A stretch of 64,000 nucleotides of DNA from Mytilus galloprovincialis (taxonomy: Eukaryota; Mollusca; Bivalvia; Mytilida; Mytilidae), in the NCBI RefSeq assembly GCF_965363235.1, contig NC_134839.1:79819410-79883409 (forward strand), written 5' to 3'. The notes beneath the pieces were generated by a model. It searched no databases and was not told the DNA's origin. It saw only the letters and a program-made list of their open reading frames with translations. Within the stretch, counting starts at the first letter, position 1. Every line of letters starts with the position of its first letter. This document shows positions 15,701 through 59,702 of the stretch, one piece after another. A program made the position numbers and the translations under genes.

Positions 15701-18700
15701 GACAGTGGTGTAACAGTACAACATAGGAATGAAATATATAAATCAGTTGGAAAGGCCTACTCATCAGATGGATACAAATAGAGATACATATCATAAAAAC
15801 ATGTGGACGTGACTGGGTACTTGTACATCCCAACACTTTTAAAGCCAATACCTGTGACCGTCGTATGTCAACTGTAATATTCTCTATCATTTTTAGGTCG
15901 TTAGAGAGAATGAAATTCATAAAAACAGAATAATCATTATGAACAATCCAGATAATCCATGTAAGTCATCATCTAGGTAGATTACAGCTCTTTACTTTGA
16001 ACCTAACAACAATCATCTGGTTTAAATTACAAATGATTTTTATTTATGGTATCAGATCGACTATCAAACATATAAAACACTTTCATTTGAAGAAAATATC
16101 AATTCTTGCTACCAGAGAAGCATTTCTCATTGACGTTCGTCCTATATATCTTGTTCTATACATCACATCTTTAGTTTAGAAAACTCGTATATAAATGGTT
16201 GATAACCGCGAATATCATTGTCACATTATAAAAATCTATGCTTTCCTGTAAGATATTAAAAATACCTTCACACAAGAAACATACAAGTACAATTTAAAAG
16301 TCAACAAAATTGTACTTTTTTTTTTTTACAAAATCGCATGTGAAAAAATCGTATTGTAAACCATCGACGCATTCTGGTTACTAGAAATACACCAAATAAC
16401 GTAGGTTTGAATGGATAACTAGTGCGTGTGTGTTATAAATTCTGGTTTCAAGTCATAAGACGCTTCGTATTTTAGCAGGAACCAGTTATACAAGAGAGGA
16501 ACTTAAAAAATTAAGGTATGTTTGTTTGAAAAAAGAGAAAGAAGGAACTATTTTAATGGACCGATGTAACAAAATATCCTTTCTTTTGAAACATATGTTT
16601 TCTTTATTTTGATGCATATAAATCAAAAGATAGAAGGATAGTCATCTTCGCTAGCCAATGGTTACGATACACTCCTCTCCTCTCCACATGTTGGCTTAAA
16701 CTGTCAAGGATGGAGAAGAAGGGAGTTGATCGTAAGCCGTGGCTAGCGAAGATGACGGATAGTGGAGTCGTACAGATAGCTGTGATCTTTGTCTATTTTT
16801 ACAAAATTTTAAAAAGGAAAGTCCCTAATCAAATGGCAAAATCAAAGGCTCAAACACATCATATGAATGGATAACAACTGTCATATTCCTAAGTGGGTAC
16901 AGGCATTTTCTTTCCAGTATATTGAAAATAGTGGATTAAACCTAGTTTTAAAAATAGCTAAATCTCTCATTTGTACGACAGTCGCATCAAATTCCATTAT
17001 TTTGACAACGATTTGTGAACAAAACAAACAGACATAATAGGTACAAATGTCAAAAATGGGGATACAGCAGTCAATATTGTGTAATATTCTTAATCACTAT
17101 AAAAACAAAGAAAATTAATATTTAACAAAGAAGCACAAAGTTATATATACCAAGCATATTAGCTAAAATTTAAGACAAGAACAACAAAATTGTCTCTTTA
17201 CAGTTCGTATACGGTATGGATTTTGCTCATTATTGAAAGCTGTACAGTGACCTAAAGTTTCTAAGCTTCTAAGTCATTTGCTCTCTGGTGAAAAGTTATC
17301 TCATTGGTAATTATACCACATATTCTCATTTAATAATGTCACAGATTTTGTTAACATTTTGCATTTAACTTTGTCTCGTCGAATTATAAATAAAACAAAA
17401 ATATTTCCATAATACACGAAAGCCTCACTCGCACTATCATTTTCCATGTTCAGGTGACGGTAAAAACTCTATTTGGCATTGAACTTAGAAATATCCTAAG
17501 ACCTTTCATTGGGAACATGCATGTGTACTTAGTATCAAGTTGATTGGACTTTAACTTCATTAATAACTGCCTTGACCAAAACTGTTAACCGGAAGCGGGA
17601 CAGACGGACGAACAAACAGACAGACGGACGAACGAACGGAATAACGCACAGACCAGAAAAAATAATGCCACTATCTGGGGAACAATAAAAGAGATATTTT
17701 CAGTTATAACTCAACGAGCTAAAACTTGTATACCAAACTTTACTAACATATGTGACAGAACCCATTCACTAGCTGTTCCTTGACATTATAGAAAGGCAGT
17801 AGTCGCTGGTTGTGATGGTTTAGTTTCAGTAACACAAGTCTTGTGCATTTATCCGTACAAGGGTACAAATAACAACACTTTAAAAGCACTTCTGAATGTT
17901 CTGACATTTCGATACTTAAATTTTTAAGCAGTTGACTGACGGGCCGATGAATTCGTTAAGTTTCAGTACAAACTGTTTTTTTTTTTTTTGTTCAATTGTT
18001 ACTCTAAACTTTTATGTTTCAAGATTTTTCACGAGAAAACTCGCATCATAATTTACATGATGTTATTTAAAAGTACGTAAAAGTGGTATGGTTGCAAATG
18101 ATATAACTATACAGTATAGTCCAAAATGATGTAGATGTTATCAAGTATAAAGTCAAAAACTGCTTTTAAATAAATCTTAGACTGATGATATGAGAATCAC
18201 ATATTTGACTATGACAAGTAAAATTTAAGCTCTTCGATAATTATTTTGACACATGTATCTTTTGCATTTATTACAGCGATTGTTTTCGTCTACACAACAT
18301 ACTTGTGTTGAGTGATGAGATTTACGGTCGACTTCATTATGATCAAGATCACTCTTCCATTTTAAAGGTAGGAATTGACTGATGTGTCTAATGTGCTGTT
18401 AAATAATCTTATAAAGTTGACATTTATATGTCACAGTACCCTGTCGGCAGGTGCATTATTATTTTCAAAAGATCTACCTCATATACTGGTGCATAATTAT
18501 TTTCAAAAGATCTACCTCATATACTTCTATATTCTGTTTTTGATTCACTGGAATGTACGTTTTACGACTGTGCTAATGTCGTTCTTTTGCACATAACCGT
18601 TATGTATTTCCAATTGAATTAAACAACAACAACAAAACAAATACATAATCTTGTGTAAACATTGACTAATGCTTATTTTTTCAGTATTATCCCGAGGGTA

Positions 18701-29990: not shown

Positions 29991-30099
29991 GGTATCGACA
30001 GATTGTAGATCCATGAATATGTATATGTATAAAACATACTAGTAATATTTAGTTAGCTTTTAATTTACTGATAAAAAAATCAATATTTATACCAATAAA

Positions 30100-30712
30100 A
30101 ACAATATTCAATGATCTTATTACAGTGTTGAATAGGTAACCTTTTAGAATAAGTTTATTTAAAGAAGCGACGAGTTTACATGGATCATTTCTAAATTTCC
30201 GGACACGGTTATCAACATTTCCGTAAAAATGAGGATGTGCTATCCCGTTTGAAATAAGCTTTCAACAGGTACAACCAAACTTCAAAACCAAATCTTTATA
30301 TCTATGGAAAAATTTAGTAAAGGTTTTAAGTAATTTATGGTAACGATATCCCTGGTTTAATAATTTACCAGTAATACATAGATTGCGTTCGTCAAAATCA
30401 AAAACGTCACAACAGACACGGGCATAGCGAACGAGCTGTGAAATATAAACACCGTAAGATGGTGCCAAAGGAACATCACCATCTAAAAATGGTAAATTAA
30501 CAATAGGGAACGAAATATCGTCTCTTTTGTCGTAAATTTTAGTGTGGAGTTTCCCGTTTAAAACCCGAAATATCTAAATCCAGGAAAGGACAGTTAGTAT
30601 CGAATAAATTTGATTTATTCAGAGTAAATTCTTTGGAGAAAATTTCAGCAGTATATTTAGAAAATTCTTGATTATTTAACGAAAAAATATCATCAAGATA
30701 ACGGTAAATTTG
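30100..30712 (-). mobile_element. Retroelement reverse-transcriptase fossil, fragment
   Basis: Minus-strand pieces carry the catalytic YLDDI signature, a CPFLDLDI block and a DERNLCITG...NQGYRYHKL block, paralogous to the larger fossil at 35330-37480. It is broken. The right end is cut by an R1 repeat. The family is probably Penelope-clade or a related reverse transcriptase, not certain. Confidence 0.65.
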
Positions 30713-30960
30713 TGTCTGTTTGTTTTGTTCGCACATTGTTGTCAATATCATGGAGAATTTGATACGACTGTCATACAAGTGGGAGGTTTAGCTAGCTATA
30801 AAACCAGGTTTAATTCATTACTCTCTTCATATTCTCTCAAGAATATGACAGTTCTTAACCATTCATTTGATGTGTTTGAGCTTTTCATTTTGCCTTTTGA
30901 TTAGAGACTTTCTTTTTTTTTTATTTTCCTCGGAGTTTTATTGTTGTGATTTTACTTTTT
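30712..30960 (+). repeat. R1 dispersed repeat
   Basis: Begins at GTCTGTTTGTTTTGTTCGCA exactly where the reverse-transcriptase fossil stops, so it was probably inserted into it. The body has ATACGACTGTCATACAAGTG and TAGCTAGCTATAAAACCAGG. Confidence 0.75.
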
Positions 30961-33349
30961 GTGGTTAGTTTTATGGTTATTGTTATAAAAATTTGTTTGT
31001 TTGTCCCTTTTGGACATTATTTGTCTCACTCGAGTTATTGATATTGTTTTCTCAGTCATTCCATTTCAACCGTTATTAATTGCGAGAATATCCTTTAGTG
31101 ATGGCTCTCCATCTGGTTCGCATCATCGACAGTGCTTTTGTTGTTTTCGAATTGCAACCTTATATTGAATTATATATTTACTTTTTATCTCAATATAGAG
31201 GTATTTCATACAATCTGATAATTTAATTAAATACTCGTCGGCAAATACACAAGTTAATGCATGCTGTTATGAATATTAAAGGCGAGTCTCCTGTGTGCAT
31301 TATCTTGATACTTTAAAAATAGCAACACAAACACAAACGTTAAGGTAAAAGTAGTTGAAGTATTATCTAAATGTCCATAATGTGATTTGGATGTGTTTCA
31401 AATCAATTTTAATAAATTAATTTGGGTAAAAGGAATCCGTTTATTTCCGTGATATATCAATGGACTTTTATAAAATTGTATAATAATGCTGCACAAAACA
31501 AATTAATTTAAATCTATGTCATATTATAAAAGGATAACAAAAATAGTGAGGATAAAGACCTTTGGAAAAAAGTAATTCTCGTGTACAATATAAATAAAGC
31601 CAACAGTCATTGTAGAAATTTAATTCAATAGCTAGGTTTCGTTTGTAATCGGCCAGAATTTTACCCTGAACACCTTGATACGTACTTGGTAGTGTTGCGC
31701 GCGCAGTAGTCGTTTGAGCAGTTGTGTTTTCTAATGACATGATCTTTCAGCTCAGGAGGCACCATTTTGTCTGAAACTTGACCCACTTATACCATTTTTA
31801 GGATATCTGTTAAAGAAGAAAGAGACATACATTAAAAAATATAGAGTCTTTCAAACGTTTTTTGTTTTGTTTAAAAATTACTAGACCTTCAAACACTGAA
31901 AAGCATGGTAAGCATATAATCGCATTACTTATTATTTTTCATTCAGATTAACAGTTATTAGTATATTAATGGGTTTTTTTGACATACAATTATACAAATA
32001 GACAATTTTCCACGCACTTATTTTTTAAAGCGTACATATAAAAGGGAAAAATACATAAAAAAAAAAAAAAAATTGGGAATAATTGTTTCAAAATTTGATT
32101 AAGAATATAATATTGAAACAATATACAAGCTCATATCACAATCACAGCTTTAATCATTAGTGTATCGACATAGAATAACGTAAATGGCAGTGATATCGAC
32201 ATATAAAGAGAATATGTAAACAAGAATTGGTTAAAGATAGGCAGTTTTTGATAACTTAGTATTTAGATATTCAGCTACAAATATACAAGACCATTTGATA
32301 TTGAAAAGACAAATAAATTAAGTATAAATTAATTGAGGTTTCAAAATCTTTGGTTGTACCAATTATTTCTCCAAACCGTTGTTTGGTAATTTGTATATGG
32401 TAACAATATACTGGAAATGGAAAAAGGTATTTAGTAACATTTGGGTCATGGAAGTTAGGTGTTGCAGGAGTGTTGTTAGACCTGTTTATGCGCATAAGAC
32501 AACTATTTCTTACGTATTATTCTATGTATAATGAAACAATTTCAAAAACTTTAACCACATGTTATTTATATAAAATTTGATCTCAACTCCAATTAAATCC
32601 AACCTCTTCAAACATTTAAATTTAATATTACATCGCATATTAGAAAAGCAACTTACCCGGAAGTTCAATAAACGAATGTATTTTTCCTCTTGCTGACGTA
32701 CGCTATTGATTCACTTCAAATATCATTAATTGTTATAAAACTATTAAACATGACACAGAATTACGTAATTTTATGAGTGAAATACAATAACTTTTTTACT
32801 CTTAACAATGTTTCGCTTTACTATAAGAAATTCTCTAATTTACCAAGCAATGTATATTTAGCAATTATTTGTTGAACTTAACACCGGAAATGACGTTTTG
32901 TTTCGATAATTTTCCACCTCGAATTGAAAAATTGTGTTTTATGGTATTCACAACTTCGCAATCAAGGAAAGTATCGTCTTTCTTAAATATGTAAAGTTAT
33001 ATTTTGATGAAAGTTTACAAGTATTTTGAATAAATACAAATAAATGGAGAACACAAATATCAGAGGAAACAGTATAAACTACCAATGGAGCAAGAATAGG
33101 TGCGAATGAAGACAGTAAGAGTCTCCTAGTATACATGCAATACTCGCAATGCAAAGTCAAAATATCAAAATCGTGAACAGAAACAATAAGCAAAATTAAA
33201 AAATAAGGCTACTAATCAGGTTTCTAAAGATCTAATGCCTCGAAAGCATCGAATGGATTTATGTATATCTTTATACGAGCTTTATTTACATGGTGATGTG
33301 TCTCCTGAGCAAAACAAAACAAACTGCAACAACAAAGTCTCCAGGACAC
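30961..33349. other. AT-rich interval without confident gene
   Basis: A minus-strand frame at 31519-31740 starts MSLENTTAQTTTARATLPST and a shorter one at 32271-32495 reads TPNFHDPNVTKYLFPF. Neither has clear splice signals or a recognisable domain, so they are left unannotated. Nothing else was seen. Confidence 0.5.
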
Positions 33350-35290: not shown

Positions 35291-35799
35291 CTCAATTAAA
35301 CTGATTGAAAAATTATGTCTTCATCATATGAATATCAGGCACAATCCTCCCCGTGAGGGGTTTAGTATCATACCATCATAACATATATGAGAAGAACATA
35401 ACCCGTGTCATGCCAACAACTGGTTTATTAAGAATAAAATGTGTTTAGTTCCGATGCAAAGACCCTATAAGTGAATCAATATTAACGCCAAAATATGCAA
35501 TCTTTAATGATCTGACAACAGTATCGTAACTATATCCCTTCTTAATAAGTCTATTTAAAGGTTTTGTTAGTTTCTGAGGTGAATACTGACATTTTTGTGC
35601 TTTATAAAGAATATTTCCATAAAATATTGGATGTGAAATACCTGAACGTATAAGAAGTCTGCATGTTGAGCTATATTTACAAATGATGTCCTGATACCGA
35701 TGATAAAATTTAGTAAATGTTTTGACTAGTTTGTGATATCGAAAACCCTGGTGTAATAATTTTTCAGTAATACATAAATTTCTCTCGTTAATATTTATC

Positions 35800-35945
35800 A
35801 AAGGTTCCAGGATTATAATTTAGTACGCCAGACGCGCGTTTCGTCTACATAAGACTCATCAGTGACGCTCGTATCAAAATATTTATAAAGCCAAACAAGT
35901 ACAAAGTTGAAGAGCATTGGGAATCCCAATCTACAACATTGTTAC
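35800..35945 (-). mobile_element. Hammerhead-bearing short repeat (R7, retrozyme-like) inserted in the fossil
   Basis: About 145 bp separating two parts of the reverse-transcriptase fossil that are adjacent in the related fragment at 30.4 kb. It contains the hammerhead motif 35825-35868, a TTCCAGGATTATAATTTAG-like 3' side and a CAAACAAGTACAAAGTTGAA-like 5' side. A second copy of the family lies near 42880-42975 in opposite orientation. Edges are approximate. Confidence 0.6.
35825..35868 (-). ncRNA. Type I hammerhead ribozyme, intact core
   Basis: Reading the minus strand from 35868: stem I strand GCGUCA; core CUGAUGA; stem II GUCU, loop UAUGU, AGAC; core GAAA; short stem III CGCGCGU ending in the cleavage triplet GUC; stem I partner UGGCGU, six pairs including two wobbles. 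Every conserved core position of the family is present. Predicted cleavage follows the C at 35831. Such minimal stem-III hammerheads are known from metazoan retrozymes and Penelope-like elements, where they act as dimers. Activity is inferred. Confidence 0.82.
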
Positions 35946-38849
35946 ATACACGAGCGAATCGTACAAGTTGAGATATATAAACTCCGCAAGATGGTGACAA
36001 GGGAACGTCACCATCTAAAAATGGATAATTAACGATAGGAAATGAGAAATCATCTCTTTTATCATAAATTTTAGTATTAAGCTTTCCGTTTATGATATAT
36101 ATATATCAAGATCGAGGAAAGGGCAGTGGTCATTGTTAGTATTAGCTTTATTTAAAGTAAGTTCAACAGGATAAATTTCTTTAGTATACATACTGAAGTC
36201 GTCATTATTGAGAGCTAAAATATCATCCAAATATCTAAAAGTATTATTAAATTTGTGTATCAGATGTTGTTTCGATGGGTCTTTGCTGATTTTTGTCATA
36301 AATTGTAACTCATAGCAATACAAAAACAGGTCCGCAATAAGTGGTGCACAGTTAGTCCCCATTGGAATTCCGATAACCTGACGATATACGGAATCTCCAA
36401 AGCGAACAAAAATGTTATCTTGTAAAAATTCAAGAGCAGATATAGTATCAAAGCATGTCCAATTGACATAGTTTTTTTTTGATTATTGCTACTAAAAAAT
36501 GACCTAAAAGAGTTTGAACATATATATTCACATTCTGACTTTTTAAATGCACATTTAATTAGGTGTGTGAATTTTTTCTTAATGAGAATGTCAGGCAATG
36601 TGGTATATAGGGTAGAAAAATCAAAACTTTGAACAGATTCAAAATCACCAATATAAGCATGCAATTTATCAAGTACTTCCAACGAGTTTTTGACACTCCA
36701 AAAGTAATTAATTCCACTATTTTCGAAGGTTTTATTTGAACAATTTATTATCAGGTTTTTGATTGTACCAAGTGTACTAGTAAGAAGAATAGATAATTTA
36801 GTAGTGGAACAATGGCTTGAAGACGAAATAAATCTATATTTGTAAGGTGTTTTGTGTAGTTTCGGAAGCCAATACATAGTTGGGACTTTCATTGTTTTTG
36901 GTTCTGCTTGCAAAGCGGTAGCTAAAAGTTTATGTTTGTTACAGATGTCGTTTTCTGAAAATGGAGTCAGTTGGAATGTTGGTTAATTGGTGATTTCTTT
37001 TTGTAGAACCTCAATGTAAAAGTTACGTCAAACAATAATAATAGTATTAGCAGCTTTGTCGGCCGGGACAAAAACAAATTCCTTGGCTAGTTCTTTTAGT
37101 TTATGTTTGATACGAGTAATAGGTTTATTGTGGTTATTTTTAAGAGTAAAATGTTCTTTAAAATGTTGAATACGTATATCAACAATGTTTATTACTGAAT
37201 TTAAAAGTCCAAAGATTTTTTGTCAGCTTTTTCCCGTTTTATCCATTTCAAACAGTAAGTACGGAGTGAGTCGTGGATGATATCACGACACTCATTCCAA
37301 TTAATAGTTGAAGGGGGACGATATTTAGGTCCTTTACTGAGGAATGATTTCAACTCTCGGTCTTGAACGAGAATATAGAATACCAGATCGCAAATGCTGT
37401 AATGTCTCGTCTTCTTTACATATGATAGTATATTTGTTGAACTTCTATAATATCAAGGGGTTTCCTAGAAGTGTCAAATGCGCTTAAGATTGTCAATGTT
37501 TCATAAAAAGAGTTCAGGATTAGATGAACCATGCCATACAGATCTCTACAAATATCCCGTACACCAAATAAATGTGTTCCGATCCTTACAGTGCCTTAGA
37601 AACTAACAAATTAAAAGTTATGCTTGGCCAATTAATTCGGAACATAAGGTCAAAAGTATATGAACCCTGACCGACAGTCAGACATAGACATCTTACTATC
37701 ATTCAATATATCAAATACAATTGACGTCATCATGGTCATATATGAAACATGCAGACAGACATGTACATCATACACGCATTACCTTGGTGCTATAGCATAC
37801 AGGTATATATCCAAAAGGCTAAACAAAATAAAACAAACATTGCCGAATGATGCATGATAATGAGTTCGATGTTATTTAAAACCTTGTAGAAGTAAAAAAA
37901 ATCTACACCTTACAATCATAACAACAGATAGTTATCCTTTTTTAATTTTCCTTGGAGTTCAGTATTTTTGTAATTTTACTTATCCTAAAGCTTAATGAAT
38001 CCGCGATACGGACCTGACACCACAACAATGAATCTTCATCCATAAAATCAGGTAAATTCGGGGTCAGGTGAATCCTGTCTGACAGACATGTAGTTTATAA
38101 AATGTGGGTATCCTATAACTCGTGATAGGTAAGTACTTCACATGACAATAAAAAGCTTCATTCTACAATCATCCAACTATTTTACATTTCATTTCTGAAA
38201 ATATTAATACTTTGAAATGCTTAAACCTATTGAGGATGTTGTCCTATCTAGCTTTTCTCAATACCAATAACAAATATTAATTATCATTTAATTGAAGAAT
38301 AATTTGAACGTTTTCGCAGCATCGGATCTTTTACGATACTTTTCACGATCTTCAAAAATGCGGTACGTTATCTTTCACGATCCGAAAAATCAATTTTTGT
38401 GTAAATAGTTCTTAATTTGCCAAGTTTCAGATTATGTTGATACAAAATAACTATGAGAACTATTTGAGTAATTCAAATAGAATGTCCTTATTCGGATAAA
38501 AGTAGTTTTTCTAGTCGAATTTGTGAAAAAATCATGTTTGTTCACATTTTTTATGTCATTGAAATGTCGAGAAGCAATCTGCCTTTTGTTGTTTTGTAAT
38601 AACTATGTACTTTTAAAACTGGATATTCTCACATACTGATCATAATGTTGAACCATTTTGATAGACAGTTTTATTTTGTCATTAATTTGTCTGTGTAATT
38701 AATTAAATTATAATATTTATTGACCTTTCATATGTCTTCTCGATTAAATGTCTTTCACGATCCGTTACCAGAACTTTCACGACTTGACCGCCGTTAGATA
38801 TTCCTTCACGATCGTTTCTCTCGTTAAACCGAATGACACCCATGTAGGT

Positions 38850-42764: not shown

Positions 42765-42875
42765 ATATATGCCTTTTTTCTTTTTCTTAAGATTATAACA
42801 TAATGTTGACTACTGAACCCTTATTTTGCCATTTTTACCTTTTATGTCTGTTCGTTTTGTTCACACATTGTATTT
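42765..42875 (+). repeat. R1 repeat, 5' part
   Basis: Has ATAACATAATGTTGACTACT and TTATGTCTGTTCGTTTTGTT, then switches directly into the hammerhead-bearing repeat. Confidence 0.55.
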
Positions 42876-42903
42876 GTTTGGCTTTATAGCTATTTTGATC
42901 TGA

Positions 42904-42947
42904 GCGTTACTGTTGAGTCTTGTGTAGACAAAACGCGTGTCTGGCGT
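42904..42947 (+). ncRNA. Hammerhead ribozyme relic, decayed core
   Basis: Colinear with the ribozyme at 35825-35868: stem I GCGUUA and UGGCGU, stem II GUCU-UGUGU-AGAC, stem III CGCGUGUC. The core reads CUGUUGA instead of CUGAUGA, and the second core segment is AAAA instead of GAAA. Both altered positions are invariant in active hammerheads, so this copy is predicted inactive. The flank AAACTATAATCCTGGTACC matches the other R7 copy in reverse. Confidence 0.7.
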
Positions 42948-43049
42948 ATTAAACTATAATCCTGGTACCTCTGATAACCATTGTTGTTATTATAATGGAT
43001 TTTATTTATGCGACTATCTTATAGTTGAAAGGCCTGGTGAAAGGTAGGT

Positions 43050-44188: not shown

Positions 44189-45957
44189 GTATATATATAT
44201 AACAAGTCAAAAAGGGTACAACATCACCATTAAATAACTATAAAATAAACAAATATTAGATATTTCGGATAACAAAATATCCTTCTTCATTTTAAATAGC
44301 ACGATGTCAAATGAATCATATCAATATATTCAAACTGAGAAACTTTTTCTAAATCTTGAAATTTATACAATTTAAGCGAACACCGCAGACGGTGGTACAA
44401 TTTTAAAATTTCCAAACACAGCGCAAAGATTACAAAGATATGCCAAATGAAAAAAATTATTTTCGATGTGAACTGGCACAACTCTAAATTTCCAAGTTGT
44501 GACAGTTTAAATGTTATAACTGCATTGAGGGCAGTCCTCAAACAAAAAATTCAAACATGTCCTAACCGATCCAAGTTTGTATAATGTTTCAAACTTGACA
44601 ACGGTAGGGCAATTGCAACAGAAACTACATATTTAAGCCTCCCAAACGAGTATCAGTCTAATAATGATTAGAACAATAAGTTTATCTAATGAGGTAAAAT
44701 AATTGAACGTGGCTACGTACTTATACATCCATCCCGAATGAATGGAGCCTTGTAATTTAAACTGGTATTTTAAAAAGAATTTCGAACTGTAAAGCCACTA
44801 CTAAAGCCGGAGTTACTGGAAACAAGTGATGACAGGAAAATGAGGGACTAATTCTATGTTTTTTCATTGATGCCCTCTGGGGAAACTGTCCGTAACTTTC
44901 TGATCCAAAATCTTTCCCGAGCGACTCTGTCGACCTTCGACAAACCCTCGTTGTGGTCTATGATTGTGATGGTAAGGTTTTTGAGATCAGCTTGTGTGTG
45001 CCCAGGTGATCTCAAATGACGACTTACGGGTAGATCGGGCTTGCAAGTGTAGTCACTTCGATGACCATTCATGCGTTTGTTGAATGGCTGCTCTGTCTCG
45101 CCAACATACTGCATGCCACATCGACACTGAAGGAGGTATACAACATTCTGGGTTTTGCAAGTTACATTGCAAAATATAGTGTACACAGACCCAGTCGAGT
45201 GGCAAGTAAATGTTTGAGTATTTAGTATTTGTTGACAAGTCAGACAACGTCTGTTACCAAATGACTTGCACCATCCTGCAATTGAACAGCTTTTATTTGA
45301 GGAGACGCCAGCTCCAACAAATAAGTCTTTCAGACTTGCTGGTCTCCGAAAAGCTAAGACAGGAGGATTGTAAAAGATCTTGGATAATTTAGGGTGTTTG
45401 GCAATAGTTTGCCGATTAGCACGGATCAAACGTGAAAGGTTAGAAAAGGCTGGATTGTATGTTAGAACAAATGGGACTATTTTGCTGCGCCTCTTCCGTT
45501 TGTACTGTAAGAGGTCATTGCGGCTGTTATTGTTAGCGCGCAAACCCCTTATCTATGTCCAATTTCTTATTTAATTGAATGGTGGGCGTTGTTTGCATGT
45601 CTGATGAAATCATCCAATTTTTGTTAGGATTCAATCTATTTCATGTCAACATCATTAATGAAACGGAACCAAGACAAAGGTTTGGATAAAGATGCTGCAA
45701 TAAGTTGTTTTTCTAATTTGCCCATGAAAATATTCCGTTTGTACTGTAAGAGGTAATTGCGGCTGTTATTGTTAGCGCGCGTAAACCCCTTATCTATGTC
45801 CAATTTCTTATAACCTCGTTTTGTCAAAATTCTGCGAAGTTCCTGTAACCGTTTCGTGACAGCCTCCTCAGAGGAGCAAATCCGCTTGACTCTGAGAACT
45901 TGACTGTACGGGATACTTTTTGTACAGTGTTTGGGTGACAGCTTTGGGGATATCAAC
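44189..45957 (-). mobile_element. Inverted, rearranged partial copy of the Penelope-like element
   Basis: Three blocks in reverse orientation match the neighbouring element but out of order: 44189-45570 matches 47541-48907 (end of coding region plus 3' flank), 45571-45735 matches 47120-47282 (palm region), and 45736-45957 matches 47402-47620. The frame at 44854-45543 covers the linker and GIY-YIG endonuclease region (VVYLLQCRCGMQYVGETEQP) and is open for 229 codons. The order suggests template switching or foldback during insertion, a feature known for Penelope-like elements, where partial inverted copies often flank the 5' side. Confidence 0.82.
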
Positions 45958-46121
45958 CATATCGAATCTCATAAGCTCCACGTCAAACAGATTAACAAAT
46001 TTAAACGTGATGGTGTTCAAATTAACCCCCTTTAATCAGACCCTCTAAAAAATCAAATAAAAAGCCTCGAAATCGTAGATTTCAAAGAAAAATTCGAGTT
46101 CCGACCAATCCCAACAACACG

Positions 46122-46763
46122 GTGGTCAATTTATCCTCAGTCTCTTTATCTGAGGACGTCTTGTCTAAGGGTTTGAATTTTTGCCCTACTCCCAATAACG
46201 TAGATAATATGAAACTGGGAGATGACCTTGATAACTTTGCCAGAACCCTCAGAATCAAAGAATATTTTCCGTATTTTAAAAAGAAGAGTTCATGGATTCC
46301 AAAACCTAGTAAATCTGCTACACTGGAAGATGTTATCAACAAAATCAAATCGGATGTTGTTCATCTAGCTAGCAACAAGTACTCGTCATTTTATAACACC
46401 TCTCCTGACGAGAAAAAAGCCATACAATCGCTGAGAAACCGAGATGATATTGTGATAAAACCAGCAGACAAGGGCAGTGCCGTTGTGATAATGGACAGAG
46501 CTAACTACATCGCGGAAGCAGTGCGTCAGCTCTCTGATGAGAGATTTTATAAGAAACTAGACTATGATCCTACATCCGCGTTTACCTCCAAAATTATCAC
46601 TGCGTTACAAACCATGTACAATGACGGTCACATAGATGAGGATACAATTGGTCATTTAAAACCAGAGAATGCCAAGCCTGGTCGATTGTATCTTCTTCCC
46701 AAAATACACAAGTTTAACAACCCTGGTAGACCCATTGTATCCGCAAACGGCCATCCGACTTAG
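46122..46763 (+). CDS. Penelope-like element: N-terminal and fingers region
   Basis: Open part of 213 codons. DIVIKPADKGSAVVIMDRAN and RLYLLPKIHKFNNPGRPIVS are characteristic of the Penelope reverse-transcriptase N-terminus. Part of a broken element, not a host gene. Confidence 0.8.
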   Translation: MVNLSSVSLSEDVLSKGLNFCPTPNNVDNMKLGDDLDNFARTLRIKEYFPYFKKKSSWIPKPSKSATLEDVINKIKSDVVHLASNKYSSFYNTSPDEKKAIQSLRNRDDIVIKPADKGSAVVIMDRANYIAEAVRQLSDERFYKKLDYDPTSAFTSKIITALQTMYNDGHIDEDTIGHLKPENAKPGRLYLLPKIHKFNNPGRPIVSANGHPT

Positions 46764-46853
46764 AAAATCTCGGAATTCGTCGATTTTCATTTAAGATCTC
46801 ATGTAGAAAGTCTTCCTTCCCACATTCAAGACACTACAGATTATCTTCGTAAA

Positions 46854-47993
46854 ATGGAATCTATGAACCCTCTTCCTCCGGAAACCCTCCTTGTGACTTT
46901 AGATATTACCTCATTGTATACCAACATACCTCATGATGACGGCATACAATCTTGTAGGGAAATATGGGACTTTCGCAACATTTTAGAACCACCTACTGAA
47001 TGTTTAGTCCAGCTGCTTTCTCTGGTCCTGAAATGCAACAATTTCACCTTTAATGGTGATCAGTACCTTCAAATAAACGGGACAGCGATGGGGACGAAAA
47101 TGGCACCGTCTTACGCCAATATTTCCATGGGCAAATTAGAAAAACAAATTATTGCAGCATCTTTATCCAAACCTTTATCTTGGTTCCGTTTCATTGATGA
47201 TGTTGACATGAAATGGATTGAATCCCAACAAAAACTGGATGATTTCATCAGACATGCAAACAACGCCCACCATTCAATTAAATTTACGTATGAAATTTCC
47301 GACTCTAAAATATCTTTCTTAGACACAACCACATCTATAAAGGACGGTGTCATATCAACACACCTCTACTGTAAACCCACAGATAAATATCAGTACCTTT
47401 CTCCCCAAAGCTGTCACCCCAAACACTGTACAAAAAGTATCCCGTACAGTCAAACTTTCAGAGTAAAGCGGATTTGCTCCTCTGAGGAGGCTGTCACGAA
47501 ACGGTTACAAGAACTTCGCGGATTTTTGACAAAACGAGGTTATAAGAAATTGGACATAGATAAGGGGTTTGCGCGCGCTAACAATAACAGCCGCAATGAC
47601 CTCTTACAGTACAAACGGAAGAGGCGCAGCAACATAGTCCCATTTGTTCTAACATACAATCCAGCCTTTACTAACCTTTCACGTTTGATCCGTGCCAATT
47701 GGCAAACTATTGCCAAACACCCTAAATTATCCAAGATCTTTCCCAATCCTCCTGTCTTAGCTTCTCGAAGACCAGCAAGTCTGAAAGACTTATTTGTTAG
47801 AGCTGACGTCTCTTCAAATAAAAGCTGTTCAATTGCAGGATGGTGCAAGTCATGTGGTAACAGACGTTGTCTGACTTGTCAACAAATACTAAATACTCAA
47901 ACATTTACTTGCCACTCGACTAGGTCTGTGTACACTATATTTTGCAATGTAACTTGCAAAACCAAAAATGTTGTATACCTCCTTCAGTGTTGA
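46854..47993 (+). CDS. Penelope-like element: reverse-transcriptase palm, thumb and linker
   Basis: Open part of 379 codons. [11 protein letters not shown] carries the first catalytic Asp, [13 protein letters not shown] is motif B, and [12 protein letters not shown] carries the catalytic Asp pair. The downstream [13 protein letters not shown] cysteine-rich linker leads into the start of the GIY-YIG domain (NVVYLLQC). Part of a broken element. Confidence 0.85.
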
Positions 47994-50579: not shown

Positions 50580-51275
50580 GTGACTCTGTACCTATATATC
50601 TTGTCATACTTTGAATGACAAAATTATTTTATTCATTAATAGTACTTTTACTGTTAACCCACTTTTTTGCGATATACATTTGACGTGACTCTGTACTTAT
50701 GTATCCCGTCATACTTTGAACCACACTATTATTTTATTTATTATTACTTTATACTGTTTAGTCAGTTTTTGTTATATCTATTTTGCGTGACTGTATTTAT
50801 GCATCCCGTCATACTGTGCGAATTTCAAACGCGCAATTATACACTAGTACTAAACCCTCCCTCCTTGATGGGTGCATTTTACATAGACAAGTAAAATCGT
50901 ATAATATAATCAAAATGAGGATGTTAATTTGATGTGTGCTTCTTCGTTACATTTGTTGTTTTTATAGTGATTAAGATGATAACACAATGTTGACTACCCC
51001 TATTTTTAACTATTGTGTCTGTTTGTTTTGTTCACGCATCGATGACAATATAATGGAATGTGATACGACTGTCATACAAGTGAGAGATTTAGCTAGCTAT
51101 AAAACCAGGTTCAATCCACCATTTTCTACATCTGAAAATGCCTGTACCAAGTCAGGAATATGACAGTTCTTGTGCGTTCGTTTTTGATGCGTTTTGTTAT
51201 TTGATTTTGCCATGTGATTATGGACTTTCCGAATTGATTTTCCTCTGAGTTCAGTATTTTTGTGATTTTACTTTT
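50580..51275 (+). repeat. R1 repeat with long 5' extension
   Basis: The 5' side has several diverged copies of a GACGTGACTCTGTACTTATG / TATCCCGTCATACT block (about 50580, 50685 and 50790), then TATAGTGATTAAGATGATAA, then the R1 body with CGACTGTCATACAAGTGAGA and the terminal CTGAGTTCAGTATTTTTGTG. Confidence 0.7.
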
Positions 51276-51399
51276 TAGCTTCTAAAACTCGCGACATGGG
51301 ACAACATACATTTCAAACTTTAATGTTTTCTTTCAAGACCTGCTTAAGTCTTATGGAAAAATAATCAAAAGGATCAGCTGTTTTCTTCACAAATAATAC

Positions 51400-51955
51400 A
51401 AGACGGTTTTGAAATAAAGATTATATGTACAATTTTTATAGCGTGTTTTTTTATTTGTCTTTTAAAGTTATTACTTTTACTGTTCAGTCTTTTTTTGATT
51501 ATACCCATTTGACGTGGCTCGGTACTTGTATATTCTGTCATAATGCTATTATGCAATGGTAAATTTGTAAATTCGTGCCTTTCGTTTTTGCTTATGTACT
51601 TTGTCTGTGTGCTTTTGTTTTTCTTTGTTGACATATGTGTTTGTTTTAAAGTGATTCAGTTTAGAAGACAATGTTGACTGCTGTACCTTTATTTTTAACA
51701 TGTTTACCTATTATGTCTGTTTGCTTTGTTTACACATCGTTGTCAATATAATCGAATTTCATGCGACTGTCATACAAGTGAGGGGTTAGGCAATCAAACC
51801 AGGTTTAATCCGCAATGTACTCATAAATAATAAGAAAATGCATGTAAAGAGTCAAGACAGGTCTTATCCATTCGTTTGATTTGTTTAAGCTTGTGATTTT
51901 GCCATTTTACTAGGGACTTTCGGTTTTAAATTTTCCTCGTAGTAAGGTATTCTTG
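51400..51955 (+). repeat. R1 repeat with 5' extension
   Basis: Same order as the copy just upstream, from CAAGACGGTTTTGAAATAAA through GACGTGGCTCGGTACTTGTA and TGCGACTGTCATACAAGTGA to ATTTTCCTCGTAGTAAGGTA. Confidence 0.7.
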
Positions 51956-52734
51956 TCTCATTCTAGAAGATGACAGAAGAAAAGTATTGTTTTTAATCCA
52001 AGAGATATGTCCATTATTCGATGAACCCTTTTGGATTATCTACAGAATATTCTTATCAATACATATGTTTTACTTTAATTTGAATATTTACTGCTAACAT
52101 ATTCTTATATTTTAAAATATGCATACGATATAAGTACCATTAAATTAAGTTGTGTAAAGATTGACAAATCATTATCGACAATCTGATGAATTTTACTACC
52201 TTGCCACCAACAGTGATTAATGTCTACATATTTTGTACATAAAATTATATTAAAAATAATACTGTTAAGATTCATAAGAAAAAAATGAGGATAGTTAAAA
52301 ATCATTTAAAAAAAATTATCAATCAGAATATAAATAACATTCACACGTATATGTTGTCGAAGGTGGTCCTCACAATTTCGATGAACGTAACAACAATTTG
52401 TAACTACAAGCGATTATAATATTTTACGCTTCTCGATGATTCACAAGGACAAATAATTTTCTTTGTGACTTTATAATCAACGTTACATATTGTTCGGGGT
52501 GATATTCATCATAGCCTTATATAGTTTACTTTTGCTTATTTGCAGTGTCCTTTTAGACTCTGGTTGGTACTTTTCTCATTGACACATCTCCCTTTTTTAT
52601 ATTATATTATTGTTTTTTTGGATTTGAATAGGTTGGTGGTGAAGTGAGTTAACTACACGGTTGTTTGAAGTCAAACATGCTTCTTCAATTGTAAAAGCAA
52701 AGTTAATAATTTTAACTAACGATCTTACAAGTAT

Positions 52735-54080: not shown

Positions 54081-54490
54081 TGTTTTACATGTACACGCAT
54101 AAAAAGTGCGGTTTTTATCCAACGCAATCATAGGTTTGAACGTAGTTTTCAATTTAGACTCGTATATACAAAATTGCGGTTTTTATCCAACGCAATCATA
54201 GGTTTGAACGTAGTTTTCAAATTAGACTCGTATATATGTACGAGCCTAATTTGAAAACTACGTTCAAACCTATGATTGCGTTGGATAAAAACGTAGTTTT
54301 CAATTTAGACTCGTATATATGTACGAGTCTAAATTGAAAACTACGTTCAAACCTATGATTGCGTTGGATAAAAACGTAGTTTTCAATTTAGACTCGTATA
54401 TATGTACGAGTCTAAATTGAAAACTACGTTCAAACCTATGATTGCGTTGGATAAAAACCGCAATTTTTATACGTGTGCATGTAAAACAAA
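54081..54490 (+). repeat. Large palindrome built from alternating units (R9)
   Basis: A unit of about 55 bp (core TAGGTTTGAACGTAGTTTTC then AATTTAGACTCGTATATA) appears twice forward, then three times in reverse, with two partial forward units between the reverse ones. The outer flanks also pair: TGTTTTACATGTACACGCAT at the left against GTGCATGTAAAACA at the right. A further lone reverse unit lies at about 54957-55010. The cysteine-containing frame over this region is a shadow. Confidence 0.85.
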
Positions 54491-54629
54491 TTTCGTTGTA
54501 GAACGCTCTAAAAACAGCACAAACAACATTTTCCAAAAGACCAAAAAAGTGAAAAAGTATATTTAAACAAAACGCATTTGACTAACAGATCGAACAACTG
54601 ATGTTCTTTAACCCTGCTGACTGCCATTG
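54483..54629 (+). repeat. 147-bp direct repeat, copy 1
   Basis: From AAAACAAATTTCGTTGTAGA to CCTGCTGACTGCCATTG. Recurs with a few substitutions at 55032-55178. Each copy is preceded by a reverse R9 unit, so the duplicated segment is about 220 bp with different sequence (54630-54956) between copies. Confidence 0.85.
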
Positions 54630-54765
54630 TCGATTGCCAAATAAAATTGATCACAAGATGTAACAAAATGGATCTTAATATAAATTTAATACTAAACAGA
54701 AGAAAACAATTTCAACTTGTGGCCACGATGTTATGCCACAAACATAAGGTGTTAATATTTTTTGT

Positions 54766-54809
54766 ACACCAGATCCGGATTTCGACAATAAATGTCTCTT
54801 CAGTGACGT
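54766..54809 (-). ncRNA. Type I hammerhead ribozyme, intact core
   Basis: Reading the minus strand from 54809: stem I strand ACGUCA; core CUGAAGA (position 7 is free in the family, so this is a legal core); stem II GACA, loop UUUAU, UGUC; core GAAA; stem III UCCGGAU ending in the cleavage triplet AUC; stem I partner UGGUGU. Predicted cleavage follows the C at 54772. It differs from the 35.8-kb ribozyme in stems II and III, so it belongs to a separate subfamily. Activity is inferred. Confidence 0.82.
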
Positions 54810-55031
54810 TAGGGATCGAAACGGTATTTGGAAGGTCATATAAAATGTACCCTCATTTTTAGATAGACTCTTGAATTTTAAGAGTCAATATAGGATGAAC
54901 GGATCATATAAACCGGAGGGAAAATATGATACAAGCCCAAACGAAAAAATATAATTGAGTCTAAATTGAAAACTACGTTCATCCTATGATTGCGTTGGAT
55001 AAAAACTGCAATTTTTATTGCATATGCATGT

Positions 55032-55178
55032 AAAACAAATTTCGTTGTAGAAGGGTCTAAATACAGCACAAACAACATTTTTCAAAAGACTAAAAAAGTG
55101 AAGAAGTTTATTTAAACAAAACGTATTTGACTAACAGGTCGAACAACTGATGTTCTTTAACCCTGCTGACTGCCATTG
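55032..55178 (+). repeat. 147-bp direct repeat, copy 2
   Basis: Counterpart of 54483-54629, same length and end point (TGCCATTG). Confidence 0.85.
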
Positions 55179-58894: not shown

Positions 58895-59702
58895 CGGGCA
58901 CAGGACGTTTGCGCTATTTTACCTGTAAAACGATAGGACATTTGCGCTTCAAATACTATGGACATTTGCGCTTTTAATTTTGTTACACCTGTATTAAATT
59001 GACCGGACATTTGCGCTTTTTACCTATAGTCGTCTACTTGATTTTTTAATGAGAAGTAATCATTACGTAAATTTAAGTAATATTTCTCTTTAGTACGACA
59101 AATGGTCCAGAATCCTTTCGTGCTTCTTCTTGACTCATCCTGCTATATATATATATTTTTTTTATTATCTTTTTGAAGAGTATCATTTAACAACAGTCTG
59201 TGAATTACATTAAGGTTCGTTATATTCATGAATATACACCCCTGTCAAGAATTGAGAAAGAAAAACTTGATTATTTATTTGAAAATGTGGTCGAAATACC
59301 ATTCAGAACAATAGATAACAATAACTAAATTTGTTCACTTCTTGGGCTTCAGGTATCAACAAAAACTGACCTGAGTTGACTGTACGTGTTTTTATGTCTT
59401 TAGAATGTTTACTTTAGCTCAGTGTATATAAACTTTTCAGCACATATCAATGTGATATGAAATGTGCTATGAAATGATTTTAAACTTTAAACCATAAATA
59501 AAAATATGTCTTTAACTCTGCCAGGTCAAACATGCGGGTCCCAAGTCCGGATAAAAGAGAAGGATAGTCATAAAAACAAAATGTTGCAAAAGCGCAAATG
59601 TCCATTTTTAAAAAGCGCAAATGTCCTATGACTTAAAGCGCAAGTGTCCAAAAAAAAAATAAGCGCAAATGTCCTATCAAAAAGTGCAAACGTTCTGCGC
59701 CG
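58895..59702 (-). mobile_element. Non-autonomous TIR element with arrayed end motif (R5), copy 2
   Basis: Opposite orientation to the copy at 631-1409. The left end has four GGACATTTGCGCTT-type motifs and the right end five in reverse. Ends read CGGGCACAGGAC and, in reverse, CGGCGCAGAAC. AAAATTT flanks both sides (58888-58894 and 59703-59709), a candidate 7-bp target duplication. The interior matches copy 1 in reverse (for example TTAGTACGACAAATGGTCC, GACTCATCCTGCTATA, GGGTCCCAAGTCCGGATAAA). Confidence 0.82.

Follow-up and report, generated by a model that had tools for sequence, protein, structure and literature searches.

The 64-kb stretch of Mytilus galloprovincialis DNA that was analysed (hereafter, the window) carries a complete type I hammerhead ribozyme on its minus strand, at 35825-35868 (HHR1). 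In our best reading, to which we give a probability of about 0.78, HHR1 lies in a solo, 5′-truncated copy of a short non-autonomous metazoan non-LTR retrozyme, probably of the mussel type, inside the reverse-transcriptase gene of a now-decayed Penelope-like element (PLE). The label "mussel type" follows the published account of these retrozymes and the known repeats of mussels. The insert belongs to an already known kind, and its ribozyme type is known from mussels and other animals.

HHR1 was matched over the full length of the Rfam Hammerhead_1 model (RF00163, model positions 1-45) with a score of 33.0 bits. The corresponding E-values were 1.8e-6 when 501 bases were searched and 2.4e-4 for the whole 64-kb window. 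At the gathering threshold of 34 bits, the search of the whole window returned 0 matches. We also scanned the 64 kb with a structural descriptor composed after both hammerhead motifs had already been seen (CUGANGA, stem II, GAA, an A-U-closed stem III, an NUH site and a stem I of at least 4 bp). Exactly two loci were retained, 35825-35868 and 54766-54809 (HHR2), both on the minus strand, as compared to one locus in total in 200 first-order Markov sequences having the window's dinucleotide make-up (mean 0.005). A generic hammerhead consensus pattern gave 45 matches in the window, with shuffled sequences averaging 16.9 (sd 11.0, maximum 44), but these are mostly overlapping rows from few loci and are no evidence when taken alone. 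In our view, the window-wide E-value and the Markov control outweigh the one-bit Rfam shortfall, and the observation is therefore sound. The name type I hammerhead is applied on the basis of structure and of this significance, not of the Rfam cut-off.

The conserved core (CUGANGA, GAA and NUH) and the three helices, with the opening in stem I, are all present in HHR1. Stem I consists of 6 bp, G-U pairs included (GCGUCA/UGGCGU). Stem II, made of 4 bp closed by a 5-nt loop, is preceded by CUGAUGA and followed by GAA. Stem III has 2 bp and a 4-nt loop, the cleavage triplet is GUC, and the cut is predicted between 35831 and 35830. The sequence-only reading had placed an intact hammerhead here, with its core segments and three helices, a very short stem III and the same cut position, and in all these respects the Rfam match and the descriptor scan agree with it. 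A covariance score below threshold, which it had named as refuting, is nominally what was obtained, the full-length match staying one bit under the gathering score; in our view this is outweighed. Overall, HHR1 is a genuine, structurally complete type I hammerhead, which might cleave itself.

The active hammerhead form of HHR1 is not favoured by the folding predictions. With a 53-nt RNA, the hammerhead was not the predicted minimum-energy fold, and 175 of 200 shuffled sequences folded at least as well (z = +1.09). The minimum-energy folds of 44-nt and 134-nt RNAs likewise differed from the hammerhead. Stem I pairs had predicted probabilities of 0.27-0.36 in the 44-mer; in the 134-mer, the value was 0.00 for the pairs of stem I and of stem III alike. 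The 3′ part of HHR1 (AGACGAAACGCGCGUCU, 35830-35846, minus strand) can pair as a competing hairpin that sequesters the cleavage triplet. Both arms of this hairpin are changed in the second copy of the insert described below (A for G and U for C), and both changes resemble CpG transitions. For mussel retrozymes, the available portion of PMC7229834 gives slow ribozyme cleavage, at about 0.1 per min, and predicts that retrozyme circles let the ribozyme fold freely, some mussel circles being exceptions.

HHR1 is carried by an insert of about 134 nt (copy 1, 35795-35928, minus strand). Host homology detected by blastn ends at 35944 and resumes at 35794, and a codon comparison with a related copy near 30 kb sets the edges of the insert at 35928 and 35795. 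The left junction can be placed only to within about 15 bases (about 35928 to 35943), and with this uncertain edge the target duplication is at most 2 bp (AT). Blast of 35300-36500 detected no flanking direct repeats. The insert interrupts, in the same orientation, a degenerate and probably Penelope-like reverse-transcriptase ORF (35445-36982, minus strand), recognised from its translations and broken across frames by stops and frameshifts. The match of this ORF to Pfam RVT_1 (E = 0.0094) remained under the cut-off. A related reverse-transcriptase fragment at 30078-30700 (minus strand) aligns with the host ORF by blastn (71.7% over 290 bases, 78.2% over 101 and 71.3% over 87) and has an empty site. 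It reads uninterrupted RVCCDVFDFDERNLCIT where the host ORF reads RVCNNVVD, then the insert, then INERNLCIT. The host ORF is probably the reverse transcriptase of a now-decayed PLE. Because it is split over frames by stops, no consequence of HHR1 for this ORF is expected.

Selenoprotein-type PLEs have a precedent in the Naiad elements of clams. The host reverse transcriptase presumably resembles that of Naiad-type PLEs; selenoprotein Naiads are reportedly described in clams, and Naiads are said to be without canonical hammerheads. A SECIS_1 match is present at 35325-35389 on the minus strand (33.8 bits for a gathering score of 35; E = 0.0068 window-wide and 2.3e-5 locally). This SECIS-like hairpin, which lies 55 bases beyond the stop codon of the Penelope-like reverse-transcriptase ORF, suggests a selenoprotein-type PLE. 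Searches of the PDB with two reverse-transcriptase fragments gave no meaningful match. When seven fragments were compared to Pfam, RVT_1 was above the cut-off in 46764-47990 only. Two broken copies of a PLE-like element lie head-to-head at 44854-47993, a region that includes this RVT_1 match. A GIY-YIG-like C-terminal stretch (CGMQYVGET...) was recognised in these copies by eye and by motif search, and Pfam returned no family for the fragment 44857-45552.

A second copy of the insert (copy 2, 107 nt, 42872-42978, plus strand) was found by blastn (86% over 118 bases), by nhmmer (E = 4e-41) and by alignment. An exact 6-bp target-site duplication, CATTGT, is found at 42866-42871 on its left and at 42979-42984 on its right. 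The 12 bases that adjoin copy 2 on its left agree with the host repeat and, to a lesser degree, resemble the element. The host of copy 2 is a dispersed repeat unrelated to the reverse-transcriptase ORF that hosts copy 1. Five copies of this repeat were compared, right-flank matches near 2.8, 4.2, 21.0, 27.6 and 52.8 kb being left out. Four of them align through the junction free of insert (51655-51965, 50971-51280 and 30690-30965 on the plus strand, 16805-17093 on the minus strand), and the fifth, at 29.3 kb, is unaligned there. The hammerhead of copy 2 (42904-42947, plus strand) is mutated. CTGTTGA replaces CTGANGA and ACAAAA replaces ACGAAA, the A of CUGA being changed to U and the G before AAA to A. 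Both mutated sites are essential positions of the hammerhead. No third full copy was found by nhmmer in the 64 kb, just a partial match at HHR2, and a sub-threshold match to the insert profile lies at 33252-33307 (E = 0.076).

HHR2 (54766-54809, minus strand) has the helix lengths of HHR1, with CUGAAGA as core and AUC as cleavage triplet. Besides the descriptor scan, it was matched, in part, by the nhmmer profile built from the two insert copies (E = 1.1e-4); it was absent from the Rfam searches of the whole window and from one of 301 bases in which E-values up to 10 were admitted. HHR2 sits within a 327-bp stretch flanked by 222-bp direct repeats (54408-54629 and 54957-55178, 92.8% identical), and a palindromic 68/83-bp array adjoins these repeats (region 54102-55178). 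Its setting may be either an incomplete tandem unit of 549 bp or a foldback element present in two adjacent copies. HHR1 and HHR2 were considered as partner ribozymes and rejected as such, the two being 18.9 kb apart on the same strand and different in sequence.

Neither a complete unit of 350-390 bp nor a tandem copy was detected in the window, whose hammerheads are all solo. Since tandem hammerhead-bounded units of about 170-400 bp are missing from it, we call the insert a solo fragment of its class and not a working retrozyme. The class itself, that of animal retrozymes, was correctly named by the sequence-only reading: a type I hammerhead lies within a short mobile repeat devoid of LTRs, of which two inserts with empty sites were found. 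The short dispersed repeat that it described is also borne out, except that the repeat is not free-standing at HHR1, where it interrupts a decayed reverse-transcriptase ORF. Its mention of paired copies releasing circles finds no counterpart in the window, HHR2 being no partner and the only other copy of the repeat being on the opposite strand with a mutated core. In the absence of a same-strand partner hammerhead of the family in the window, the HHR1 locus should release no circle.

Other readings of HHR1 were weighed against these data. The hammerhead might be native to the surrounding PLE, as in PLE pseudo-LTRs. HHR1 is indeed surrounded by PLE-like sequence in the same orientation, and minimal type I hammerheads have been published from PLEs, according to the accessible text of PMC7761336. 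We nevertheless consider a PLE-borne motif, also mentioned in the earlier reading, as very unlikely, because HHR1 interrupts the reverse-transcriptase ORF, the sole related copy does without it and copy 2, flanked by a target duplication, is found in an unrelated repeat. A pseudo-LTR position of HHR1 within the PLE was rejected on the empty site at 30 kb. A role for the host, for instance in transcript processing, could account for the intact core of HHR1 when that of copy 2 is mutated; however, HHR1 is located within a dead reverse-transcriptase ORF and an intact core fits a younger insertion, so that this explanation appears extremely improbable. Finally, the sub-threshold Rfam score, the predicted ground-state fold and a descriptor devised once the motif was known are what a chance resemblance to a hammerhead might produce. 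Against this stand two loci of identical geometry as compared to 0.005 per Markov window, the window-wide E-value and the membership of HHR1 in a repeat family, which leave to chance a practically negligible part.

Another possibility concerns the nature of the insert. The 134/107-nt sequence would then be a short SINE-like family, complete in itself and always ending at the same 3′ position, rather than a truncated 350-390-nt retrozyme. That the two copies span nearly equal stretches and have their 3′ end in common argues for this, and SINE-like hammerhead elements exist, as described in the part of PMC8490949 available. However, the 5′ ends as placed are 28 nt apart, the 64 kb contains no third full copy, and the published mussel hammerheads are mostly in 350-390-bp repeats, from the sections of PMC7229834 at hand. 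We therefore regard a complete SINE-like family as rather unlikely, and retain the 5′-truncated retrozyme copy.

The ends of the two inserts bear on the way in which they were integrated. Copy 1 ends at its 3′ side with TGATAA and copy 2 with TGATAAC, that is 36 and 37 nt downstream of the predicted cut. Whereas the 5′ end of copy 2, as placed, is 28 nt shorter than that of copy 1, the 3′ ends agree within 1 nt, a common end that rests on two copies. In both cases, the flanking sequence shows an ATT starting 1-2 nt after the 3′ end of the insert, a weak indication with n = 2 in AT-rich DNA. Because a linear transcript cleaved by its hammerhead would terminate in GUC, the RNA that was reverse transcribed was probably circular or uncut. 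Reverse transcription may have been initiated within this circular or uncut template, at one fixed position 36-37 nt past the cut, and an early stop of synthesis would have left a 5′-truncated insert. A Penelope-like enzyme would be the likeliest insertion machinery. At its present locus, HHR1 would at most nick a read-through transcript in cis at 35831/35830.

Such a mechanism can be compared to that of the purified Poseidon PLE of Anolis, as it appears in the available part of PMC11167929. With this enzyme, reverse transcription starts internally, downstream of the hammerhead cut; the start is located at 111-118 nt of the ORF, within an AC-rich stem-loop, and the cut at 26 nt. Unprocessed RNA was the dominant substrate, insertion was unaffected by hammerhead mutants, and the most cleaved site was an ATT motif. 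We tentatively propose, while holding it rather doubtful, that the integration of animal retrozymes relies on internal initiation of the Penelope type. Reverse transcription would begin at a fixed point about 36 nt downstream of the cut, with circular or uncut RNA as template, and insertion would take place at ATT; the ribozyme would then make the template and not the ends of the copies. Alternatively, a short source element might itself terminate at this common 3′ end. For the reverse transcriptase that moves animal retrozymes, the text available of PMC7761336 gives proposals only, PLEs and Terminons being put forward as the likely candidates. If the common 3′ end holds over thousands of genomic copies, the start point of reverse transcription would be named, and the PLE hypothesis would become directly testable using assemblies alone. 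The shared internal 3′ end is a modest, testable lead on the integration of animal retrozymes; nothing about the ribozyme is unusual within its class.

The genome of M. galloprovincialis contains about 5000 copies of type I hammerheads, which fall into two sequence families and usually lie within repeats of 350-390 bp, and circRNAs were seen on northern blots (PMC7229834, available part). As in these mussel retrozymes, a type I hammerhead occurs here in a short dispersed element, the comparison being by description only, and HHR1 and HHR2 may correspond to two ribozyme subfamilies in one genome. Unlike them, the present copies are solo, of 107 and about 134 nt, without paired hammerheads. The short stem III is shared with the minimal hammerheads of PLEs and Terminons (PMC7761336 and PMC11167929, as far as available), and copies ending at an internal start downstream of the cut, with ATT near the 3′ junction, recall PLEs (PMC11167929, same part). 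In contrast to PLE and Terminon hammerheads, the insert has no recognised PLE coding sequence or pseudo-LTR and lies in reverse-transcriptase coding sequence. The putative start also differs from that of the Anolis PLE, 36-37 nt past the cut here as compared to 85-92 nt there (PMC11167929, same part). The SMalpha SINE-like elements and W-elements of schistosomes, as described in the available text of PMC8490949, are similarly short and hammerhead-bearing, with a very short stem III; they belong to a different phylum and are likened by description only.

Searches were also performed in viral and bacterial/archaeal collections. A strict hammerhead pattern gave 0 matches in viral contigs and 0 in bacterial/archaeal contigs, and patterns for HHR2 and for the element flanks gave 0 matches in viral contigs. 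These zeros say little, since the collections contain no animal genomes by design. With a looser hammerhead pattern, 21 matches were obtained in 19 viral contigs (IMG/VR) and 2 in bacterial records. The ACGCGCGTC stem III of the window is present in 0 of these 23 matches, which are therefore taken as other hammerheads with a common core. The 19 IMG/VR contigs and the two bacterial records show the hammerhead core CTGATGAGTCTT..AGACGAAACG. In two of the IMG/VR contigs the hammerhead is present twice, with spacings of 368 and 878 bases, and an ATG can be seen shortly after several of the viral and bacterial hammerheads.

Other ribozyme-like motifs were observed in the window. A twister-P1-like motif at 59509-59568 on the plus strand scored 41.4 bits (window-wide E = 1.1e-5) and another at 783-842 on the minus strand scored 30.3 bits (window-wide E = 0.017), for a gathering score of 67.2. 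The two motifs belong to separate copies of a single dispersed element (59332-59702 and 1022-631, with 76% identity), and after each copy comes an array of repeats about 23 bp long.
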